From Mesotoga sp. BH458_6_3_2_1 (GTDB taxonomy: Bacteria > Thermotogota > Thermotogae > Petrotogales > Kosmotogaceae): a DNA stretch of 64,000 nt. Position 1 is the first letter of the stretch. The number at the start of each line of letters is the position of its first letter. Position numbers and translations under genes: made by a program. Location: positions 62,001 to 126,000 of the forward strand of contig NZ_JFHL01000002.1 in NCBI RefSeq assembly GCF_003664995.1. The letters run 5' to 3'. Below are positions 35,673 through 37,881 of the stretch, piece by piece. Under the pieces are notes generated by a model. It searched no databases and was not told where the DNA came from. It saw only the letters and a program-made list of their open reading frames with translations.

Positions 35673-36468
35673 AACGGAGAAAATCAGAATTGGAATTGTT
35701 CAGTTCAAAGCAGACAATGATGAGCCGGGCGAGAATTTGGAGAAGGCGACAAGCTATATTGAGAGTCTTGTTGAAGAGGATGTGAACATTGTTGTTCTTC
35801 CCGAGATGTTCAACAGCGGATATGGAACGGATGAAGCCACCGTCAACAATGCAGTCGAGATGCAGGAGGAGACAGAAGAGATCCTTTCGGCGCTTGCCGA
35901 TTACAATGACATTGCTATTGTCGGTGGAATGGTGAACAGGACGAAAGTCGGTCTTTTCAATTCCGCTGTAATAATGCTTCCTTATCTTGAAGCGATCTAC
36001 TACAACAAGACTCACCTTTTCCGCGATGAAAAAAAAGTCTTCACTCCTGGCAAAGAATTCAAGTCTTTTGAGTATTTGGGTGTGAAGTTTGGACTACTTA
36101 TGTGCTATGAAATCGGGTTCCCCGAAATCTCGAGAAAACTCTGCAGGCAAGGAGCCGAGGTTCTCTTAGTTCCATTCGCCTTTGGAAGAGAGAGAAGGTT
36201 GATTTACGATACTGCGACCAGAGCTCGTTCAATTGAAAACGGGTGCTTCCTTGCGGCAGCCAGTCAAGTTGGATCGAATAAGTCTATGAACTTTGTCGGA
36301 GAAAGCAGAATCGTTTCGCCTTCAGGGGAAATCATTGCAGATTGTGGTGGCGCAGAAGGTTTTGCTTTTGCCGATGTTGACACTAAGCTTGTCAAGAGAT
36401 ATCGATTCAACGAGAGTCGTGATTCTCACGGGTATTTTTCTAACTTAAGAGACGATCTATACGTTTGA
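35665..36468 (+). CDS. Carbon-nitrogen hydrolase (nitrilase superfamily)
   Basis: 267 aa from the ATG at 35665. The Glu-Lys-Cys triad is visible: LPEMFNSGYG, YNKTHLF and LMCYEIGFPE. RARSIENGCFLAAASQVG is the conserved dimer/active-site segment. These enzymes hydrolyse C-N bonds of amides such as deaminated glutathione, omega-amides or N-carbamoyl compounds; the substrate here is not known. It overlaps the preceding membrane-protein gene by 8 bases. A tRNA promoter starts 8 nt after its stop. Confidence 0.9.
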   Translation: MSRTEKIRIGIVQFKADNDEPGENLEKATSYIESLVEEDVNIVVLPEMFNSGYGTDEATVNNAVEMQEETEEILSALADYNDIAIVGGMVNRTKVGLFNSAVIMLPYLEAIYYNKTHLFRDEKKVFTPGKEFKSFEYLGVKFGLLMCYEIGFPEISRKLCRQGAEVLLVPFAFGRERRLIYDTATRARSIENGCFLAAASQVGSNKSMNFVGESRIVSPSGEIIADCGGAEGFAFADVDTKLVKRYRFNESRDSHGYFSNLRDDLYV

Positions 36469-36475
36469 AACCCGG

Positions 36476-36504
36476 TTGACAGGTTCATTCCCATGAGATA
36501 CAAT
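36476..36504 (+). promoter_or_regulatory. Strong promoter for tRNA-Lys (and probably infC operon)
   Basis: TTGACA (36476-36481), 17 nt, TACAAT (36499-36504), 13 nt before the tRNA 5' end. No other clear promoter lies between the tRNA and infC. Confidence 0.85.
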
Positions 36505-36517
36505 AAATACCGTTAGT

Positions 36518-36593
36518 GGGCCGTTAGCTCAGCAGGCAGAGCGATTGATTCTTAATCAATAGGTTGCAGGTTCGATCCCTGCACGGCTCACCA
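36518..36593 (+). tRNA. tRNA-Lys (CTT)
   Basis: Cloverleaf folds fully: acceptor GGGCCGT / ACGGCTC (one G-T pair), anticodon stem ATTGA/TCAAT with loop TTCTTAA (anticodon CTT), T-arm GCAGG-TTCGATC-CCTGC, and encoded CCA end. Confidence 0.96.
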
Positions 36594-36599
36594 GAGAGT

Positions 36600-36700
36600 G
36601 TAAATTAAGTGGAGATTTTCTCCCACCCCCGCCCGAAGGTTGAGGGGTCAATACCTTAAGAATAGGTTATTGACATGGCGGGTTATTCCGCCAATTTTTT
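36600..36700 (+). promoter_or_regulatory. infC-rpmI-rplT leader with attenuator (L20-leader-like)
   Basis: Three elements are visible: a hairpin right after the tRNA (GTGGAGA / TCTCCCAC with a bulge, 36609-36626), a long hairpin (GTCAATACCT at 36647-36656 with AGGTTATTGAC at 36664-36674), and a terminator GGCGG-GTTATT-CCGCC with six T's (36677-36700). CCCGCC at 36628-36633 is exactly complementary to GGCGGG at 36677-36682, so an antiterminator fold is possible. This matches the logic of the L20 autoregulatory leader of Firmicutes; the ligand here is inferred. Confidence 0.7.
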
Positions 36701-36719
36701 ATATGAGAGGTGATGTAGT

Positions 36720-37286
36720 ATCGCAAGAGGTGATTCAACACCGAAAAACAATGAAATAATGACGAAGACGGTGAGACTTGTTGACATTAACGGGGAACAG
36801 CTGGGTGTTGTTCAGACATCAGAAGCGCTTAAAAATGCCAGAGAAAAGGGTCTAGATCTAGTTCTTGTGGCGCCTGCGGCAAATCCGCCGGTTGCAAGAA
36901 TAATGGATTACGGAAAGTATAAGTACGAAAAGGACAAGCGAAAGAAGGAAGCAAAGAAGAAGACCAAGCAGTCACAGCTTAAAGAGATGAAATTCAGAAT
37001 CAGGATTGATGAGCATGATTTCCAGACCAAGACGAACAGGATAAAAGAATTCCTTGAAAAGGGAAGTAAAGTTAGGGTCGTCATAATGTTCAGAGGCAGG
37101 GAAATCGTCTTTTCAGATAAAGGAAGAGAGATTCTCGAAAGAGTTGCAGATCAGCTACAGCAGATTTCCGATATCGATAGGCCTCCAAAGTTGGAGGGAA
37201 GAGATATGTGGATGATTCTTAAGCCAAAGGCAGCTCCTCAAGGAGGTAAAGATAATGGGCAACAAAGTAAAAATGAAGACTCATAA
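36720..37286 (+). CDS. infC: Translation initiation factor IF-3, ATC start codon
   Basis: 188 aa when started at ATC 36720. GAGG of the SD lies 9 nt before ATC. The 13 codons before the first ATG (36759) encode ARGDSTPKNNEI, and NNEI is the conserved start of IF3 (N-x-E-I-x(4)-VRL), so translation must begin upstream of that ATG. The only usable codon after the in-frame stop at 36711 is ATC. Rare AUU/AUC/AUA starts in infC allow IF3 to repress its own translation. N-domain VRLVDINGEQLG, Lys-rich linker, C-domain KEMKFRIRIDEHDFQTK. Controls initiator tRNA and start-site fidelity. Confidence 0.93.
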   Translation: MARGDSTPKNNEIMTKTVRLVDINGEQLGVVQTSEALKNAREKGLDLVLVAPAANPPVARIMDYGKYKYEKDKRKKEAKKKTKQSQLKEMKFRIRIDEHDFQTKTNRIKEFLEKGSKVRVVIMFRGREIVFSDKGREILERVADQLQQISDIDRPPKLEGRDMWMILKPKAAPQGGKDNGQQSKNEDS

Positions 37287-37458
37287 GGCAAGTGCCAAGA
37301 GGTATAAGGTTACCGGTAGTGGAAAGATCATGAGGAACCAATCAGGAACTGGTCATAATACCGGTAAGAAGAGTGAAAGCAGTCGCCGAGAGGCTCGAAA
37401 ATGGAAGCTGGTCGAAGGCGGATACGAGAAGAAAGTCAAGAAAAGCCTGGGCATTTGA
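37255..37458 (+). CDS. rpmI: Ribosomal protein bL35
   Basis: 67 aa. KMKTHKASAKRYKVTGSGK and the basic middle are typical of L35. ATG at 37255 with AAGGAGGT 8 nt before; the gene overlaps the infC 3' end by 32 bases. Confidence 0.97.
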   Translation: MGNKVKMKTHKASAKRYKVTGSGKIMRNQSGTGHNTGKKSESSRREARKWKLVEGGYEKKVKKSLGI

Positions 37459-37481: not shown

Positions 37482-37841
37482 ATGCGTGTAAAAGGTGGAG
37501 TAAATTCAAAGAAGAAAAAGCTGAAATATCTGAAAGCCGCGAAGGGTTATAGAGGTGCCTTGAGCAGAAGGTACAGGCTGGCAAAGCAGTTTTATATAAG
37601 ATCCGGTGTCTATGCCTATGCGGGAAGGAAGATAAGAAAGAGAGATTTCAGGAAACTCTGGATAACCAGGATCAATGCCGGTGCGCGAATCGCAGGCACT
37701 AAGTATAATGATCTGATCCATGGTTTGAAAATCGCTGGTGTGAACATCAACCGAAAGATGCTTGCAGACCTTGCAGTCAATGACTTCAATACGTTTAGGG
37801 AGTATTGCGAGATCGCCAAATCGGCACTGAACGGAAATTAA
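37482..37841 (+). CDS. rplT: Ribosomal protein bL20
   Basis: 119 aa. MRVKGGVNSKKKKLKYLKAA at the start and AKGYRGALSRRYRLAKQ, then a globular end with WITRINAGARI and YNDLIHGLK. A 23S rRNA-binding assembly protein and, in other bacteria, the repressor of this operon through its leader. Third gene of infC-rpmI-rplT. Confidence 0.98.
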   Translation: MRVKGGVNSKKKKLKYLKAAKGYRGALSRRYRLAKQFYIRSGVYAYAGRKIRKRDFRKLWITRINAGARIAGTKYNDLIHGLKIAGVNINRKMLADLAVNDFNTFREYCEIAKSALNGN

Positions 37842-37865
37842 AAGGGGCTTAGGCCCTTTTTTTTT
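37840..37865 (+). terminator. Terminator after rplT
   Basis: AAAAGGG, loop GCTTAGG, CCCTTTT and five more T's, starting at the rplT stop codon. The next gene's SD follows within a few bases. Confidence 0.9.
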
Positions 37866-37881
37866 GAGAGGAGATGAGACA

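Follow-up and report, generated by a model that had tools for sequence, protein, structure and literature searches.

A tRNA-Lys gene and an L20-type leader ahead of infC-rpmI-rplT in Thermotogota as a probable tRNA-mRNA fusion unit

The window, meaning the whole 64-kb stretch of DNA that was analyzed, is part of a 3.2-Mb Thermotogota genome, with a Kosmotogaceae bacterium as the closest named relative among the infC matches. On its + strand, the end of a carbon-nitrogen hydrolase gene is followed by a promoter, tRNA-Lys(CTT), a leader, infC, rpmI, rplT and a terminator (Table 1). The tRNA-Lys(CTT) gene is the single copy of the whole genome and begins 13 bp after the promoter, and the spacer of 126 nt between it and infC contains two hairpins, a U-tract terminator and the motif CCCGCC. 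The original prediction, made from the letters of the window, had named each of these elements, and all were found where it had placed them; the promoter, which it had called consensus, is near-consensus. Within the leader the P1 hairpin proper covers 36611-36623, the terminator hairpin 36676-36693 and the U tract (six T) 36695-36700.

Table 1. Positions in the window of the features at the tRNA-Lys/infC locus.
Feature	Position	Strand	Remarks
Carbon-nitrogen hydrolase gene stop	36466-36468	+	upstream neighbor of the promoter
Promoter TTGACA-17-TACAAT	36476-36504	+	11/12 consensus matches; same element in all f1 relatives
tRNA-Lys(CTT)	36518-36593	+	CCA encoded
tRNA CCA-to-leader spacer, 13 nt	36594-36606	+	
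P1 element, AAG + bulged N + GGAGA/TCTCC stem + C	36607-36624	+	putative L20-binding element
P2 hairpin (anti-antiterminator), closing pair A36625-U36648	36625-36648	+	pairs kept in relatives
Antiterminator strand CCCGCC, within P2 5' strand	36628-36633	+	complement of GGCGGG 36677-36682
P3 long hairpin GUCAAUACC...GGUUAUUGAC, between antiterminator strands	about 36647-36674	+	present in most f1 leaders
Intrinsic terminator TGGCGGG-TTAT-TCCGCCA + U tract	36676-36700	+	relatives: hairpin then T-rich tail
Shine-Dalgarno GAGGTG of infC	36707-36712	+	
infC (IF3), start codon ATC	36720-37286	+	Pfam IF3_N + IF3_C
rpmI (L35)	37255-37458	+	Pfam L35p
rplT (L20), presumed regulator	37482-37841	+	Pfam L20
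Operon-end terminator	37840-37867	+	

The start of infC was placed at the ATC behind GAGGTG and not at the first ATG of the open reading frame list (36759), from which the protein would lose 13 residues. The best in-frame start with Shine-Dalgarno support was AUC, AUA or AUU (42, 28 and 28 loci, respectively) in all 98 Thermotogota loci, so that annotation from the first ATG would truncate IF3. A non-AUG start of the IF3 gene is shared with E. coli, where infC begins with AUU and the start is linked to self-regulation by IF3 (PMC9410913); the codon itself differs, being AUC in the window and AUC, AUA or AUU across the phylum. By analogy with the E. coli AUU, the AUC start suggests an added translational loop through IF3. 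The rpmI start lies inside the 3' end of infC (37255-37286, a 32-nt overlap), which would permit translational coupling.

To place the locus among its relatives, infC was located in 99 of 103 Thermotogota genomes and the upstream region was read in all 99. tRNA-Lys(CTT) stands immediately before the leader in 97 of these, while the other two end at contig breaks, with the 3' half of tRNA-Lys(CTT) retained in one of them. The gap from CCA to leader ranges from 3 to 64 nt with a median of 13, and it is at most 30 nt in 90 of 98 loci. Ahead of the leader are found Lys alone, Arg-Lys, Glu-Arg-Lys, Ala-Arg-Lys, Gln-Trp-Lys and others; tRNA-Lys is always the last of the cluster and the preceding tRNA genes differ by family, a pattern of gene gain ahead of a fixed tRNA-Lys/leader unit. 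Among 79 named infC loci of other phyla, none had tRNA-Lys(CTT) before infC. Lysine demand was considered as a reason for the presence of this tRNA. The infC-rpmI-rplT genes are rich in lysine (15.2% vs. 6.7%). AAG, however, is no more favored over AAA there than elsewhere (0.63 vs. 0.69), and the explanation therefore fails for tRNA-Lys(CUU).

The leader between the tRNA and the terminator is conserved, with AAG present in 98 of 98 leaders and C[AG]C in 97. Pairs 1-4 of P1 are formed in all 98 loci, with exchanges of G-C/A-U and of A-U/G-C/U-A/C-G, and by script count the outer pairs of P2 are formed in 94-98 of the 98, the closing pair being A-U in 90 leaders and G-C in 5. RNAalifold, run on 53 leaders, recovered P1, three of whose pairs showed double changes, and no other stem, because MAFFT had misaligned P2. 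The compensatory changes in relatives on which the original prediction had staked its reading were thus seen in P1, in one pair of P2 and, as described below, in the terminator/antiterminator pairing across families. Such covariation gives a clear structure to a leader class that in Thermotogota scored under the Rfam cut-off. As read from the sequences, the P1/P2 junction, with its AAG and G-C pairs, fits the determinants described for the L20 site, namely an AA dimer together with two G-C pairs (PMC7247131). A 9-mer, AAGUGGAGA, common to the leader and the 23S rRNA of the same genome (23S position 1082) was considered as rRNA mimicry and set aside, since chance alone would yield about one match of this kind.

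Assignment of the leader to a known class was approached with the Rfam L20_leader model (RF00558, gathering cut-off 58.7 bits), a scan that the original prediction had proposed. The model matched the same spacer in most relatives at 26-58 bits, usually below the cut-off, with the top relative score of 58.7 bits in genome G002, and it also matched the T. maritima control; in the window it gave no match at the gathering cut-off and none up to E 10. Matches of the model elsewhere in the genome (E about 0.002) were treated as chance terminators. A covariance model (R1) was then built from 42 leaders of families other than that of the window, and cmsearch with R1 returned the leader as its single match in the window (22.5 bits, E 2.3e-5); a search of the whole genome with R1 did not pick up this site, probably owing to the first-look filter applied there. 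At the other held-out loci R1 pointed to the correct place in 16 of 17, two of them weakly, with L177 missed, and outside the phylum it matched 23 of 79 infC loci, mostly of Firmicutes, at up to 38 bits.

Since R1 matches both the window leader and infC leaders of Firmicutes, the former belongs, on sequence grounds, to the L20-leader class as a divergent member; its descent and its anatomy place it there, whereas the Rfam cut-off is not reached. Its anatomy comprises the position in the 5' leader of infC-rpmI-rplT (Pfam on the three genes), an H1/H2 junction with the conserved AA and G-C pairs, and a Rho-independent terminator whose hairpin competes with a mutually exclusive fold; the R1 matches in the window and in Firmicutes point to common descent with recognized members. 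The link to L20, which had been drawn from B. subtilis, is hence supported through the Rfam matches of the relatives and through R1, with Rfam blind to the window copy and L20 binding here a prediction.

Such an anatomy would also accommodate an effector other than L20, namely IF3, L35 or the tRNA itself, given that the operon encodes IF3 and L35 too, that tRNA-Lys is fused to the leader and that L20 binding is deduced from sequence. Set against this are the L20-regulated B. subtilis member of the very Rfam family that was matched and the fit of the AAG and junction G-C pairs to the L20 determinants, and we regard a different effector as the least likely of the three alternatives weighed in this work.

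The folding of the leader supports a switch between two structures. The spacer is more stable than dinucleotide shuffles (z -3.0), and for a transcript ending before the 3' arm of the terminator the minimum free energy structure consists of P1, P3 and the antiterminator 36628-36633/36677-36682, whereas the full window RNA prefers the terminator fold (-35.4 vs. -26.2 kcal/mol). The claim that the two folds are exclusive was in this way borne out by the energies of nascent and full RNA, and the antiterminator is the nascent-RNA fold in nearly all Thermotogota leaders. The complementarity of CCCGCC to the terminator arm GGCGGG is present as had been claimed; in the window alone the 6-bp match is at chance level, being equaled in 15% of shuffles, and its significance comes from the relatives. 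In a swap test, where the duplex of the P1/P2 strand with its own terminator arm was compared with duplexes using arms from other families, the native pairing of 98 Thermotogota leaders beat 2000 of 2000 cross-family derangements and was stronger by 4.2 kcal/mol on average, counts which, like those of covariation, treat related sequences as if they were independent and should not be read as probabilities. The gain in Kosmotogaceae, the family of the window, was only 1.5 kcal/mol over swapped arms, the second smallest among families, and the antiterminator of this family is accordingly weak. Most families use the P1 loop or 3' arm as antiterminator strand, Kosmotogaceae a stretch within P2, and this comparison of sequences shows an apparent move of the strand from the P1 loop to P2 with the putative protein site unchanged.

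Two leaders of the same genus (L094 and L095) also seem, by eye, to have co-changed the terminator loop and the upstream strand (CCACCC/GGGUGG vs. CAGCCG/CGGCUG), a pair not singled out by the duplex swap test.

The hairpin and U tract could in principle be a constitutive and leaky terminator of the tRNA that feeds infC with no regulated switch, as a tRNA unit requires a terminator, the full-length RNA folds as one and CCCGCC/GGCGGG in the window alone is not beyond chance. A mere terminator leaves unexplained, however, the invariant AAG...C[AG]CC with compensatory stems that 98 loci carry between the tRNA and the terminator, the co-variation of the terminator arm with the P1/P2 strand between families, and the occurrence of the same element before infC in Firmicutes, where there is no tRNA. 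We consider this alternative very unlikely, and a regulated leader is the reading that we retain.

To locate the source of infC transcription, promoter-like sites, defined by at least 9 of 12 consensus matches with expectations taken from shuffles, were counted at 97 loci; consensus scans of this kind can overlook weak or non-sigma70 starts. A promoter-like site lies ahead of the first tRNA in 88 of the 97 loci (13.4 expected), in the gap between tRNA and leader in a single one (2.0 expected by chance) and past the terminator in six (5.2 expected). On the + strand of the window, the scan found no further promoter-like site between the tRNA and infC, which upholds the earlier statement that a second promoter is not visible there. 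A separate start at 36594-36700, named beforehand as the finding that would refute the prediction, is seen neither in the window nor at the matching place in relatives. Because promoter-like sites stand ahead of the tRNA cluster rather than ahead of the leader or of infC, the most likely source of infC expression is read-through that starts at the tRNA promoter, and we infer that the promoter of Table 1 is the sole promoter of tRNA-Lys and infC-rpmI-rplT. On the question of whether the tRNA and the protein genes form one transcript, both the promoter distribution and the short gaps, as far as sequence can tell, speak in favor.

The opposing explanation is that infC is transcribed from a promoter of its own, one that overlaps either the leader or the 3' half of the tRNA, so that the tRNA and the operon merely abut. 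In B. subtilis, infC does have two promoters of its own directly upstream of the leader (PMC6097659), and at one of the six loci with a site past the terminator (L127) TTGATA-17-TATAAT (11/12), with an unusually long spacer between terminator and infC, is an apparent promoter of infC itself and possibly an escape from the tRNA-driven arrangement. Yet the site counts in the gap and past the terminator stay near expectation, and the gap can be as short as 3 nt. An own promoter of infC is thus judged slightly less probable still than a constitutive terminator.

Given these results, the locus is very probably a tRNA-mRNA fusion unit, with one promoter, tRNA-Lys(CTT), an L20-type attenuator and infC-rpmI-rplT under L20 feedback, and joint control of the tRNA and the operon from one start, as put forward in the original prediction, is supported with the qualifications given here. 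A single promoter would transcribe the tRNA, then the attenuator and then the protein genes. Without free L20, the nascent leader would form the antiterminator, CCCGCC pairing with the 5' arm of the terminator, and polymerase would read through. When in excess of its rRNA sites, L20 would bind the P1/P2 junction and keep P1 and P2 closed, freeing the terminator arm and causing a stop downstream of the tRNA; this direction of control is taken by analogy from B. subtilis, where L20 binding stabilizes the leader terminator (PMC6097659). As the stop falls past the tRNA, its output would be kept in both states while IF3, L35 and L20 are reduced, and the protein genes can probably be switched off with the tRNA still being made. 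Processing of the tRNA 3' end would be expected to release the leader about 13 nt before P1, and a second, translational layer of control is likely, with IF3 discriminating against the AUC start of infC.

With rather more reserve, we think it likely that in Thermotogota, as an ancestral state with hardly any exceptions, the essential IF3-L35-L20 genes are promoterless and are transcribed by polymerases that start at the promoter of tRNA-Lys(CTT) and read through an L20-controlled terminator. If so, L20 would decide whether a transcript of the tRNA is extended into an mRNA, its feedback acting as the separator between the two, and the amounts of an initiation factor and of two ribosomal proteins would be set phylum-wide by a stable-RNA promoter.

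The closest known system is the B. subtilis L20 leader (RF00558), which shares with the window leader the operon, the succession of P1, P2 and terminator, a strand in loop or junction that can pair with the terminator arm, and the position directly before infC. The window leader differs in escaping Rfam detection, in being tRNA-fused, apparently without an own promoter, and in carrying the antiterminator strand in P2 and not in the P1 loop. L20 motifs had been reported in Thermotogales from Rfam scans, with transfer from Firmicutes suggested (Sun et al., 2013; PMC3766115), and so both phylum and motif are shared with that report; in the part of its text covered here, the tRNA fusion, the Kosmotogaceae variant and the antiterminator covariation were not found. 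A paper of 2018 called the L20 leader RNA narrow to Firmicutes (PMC6097659). A tRNA gene also heads a translation initiation factor operon in metY-nusA-infB of E. coli, the tRNA being freed by processing (PMC6511841), although that operon has the initiator tRNA and IF2, a further promoter (P2) inside the operon on the 3' side of metY, and no L20 switch. The earlier view that joint control of a tRNA and an initiation factor would be unusual is for these reasons only partly right, as metY-nusA-infB already joins the two and L20 leaders of Thermotogales were known from the 2013 report. In titles and abstracts of the PMC literature, no description of the tRNA-Lys/infC link in Thermotoga was recognized, and the phylum-wide tRNA-Lys/L20-leader fusion as sole source of infC transcription seems undescribed within the literature searched.

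R1 also finds L20-type leaders before infC at six loci outside Firmicutes and Thermotogota, which are L065 (Thermoleophilia, 2762-2812), L048 and L081 (Hydrogenedentota), L009 (Abyssobacteria), L059 (Oleimmundimicrobium) and L020 (Coriobacteriia). The Rfam L20_leader model gave no match on L065 and L020 and scored 57.3 bits on L059, 47.9 on L081, 43.3 on L048 and 34.7 on L009. By eye, L065 and L048 each have a loop strand matching the terminator arm.
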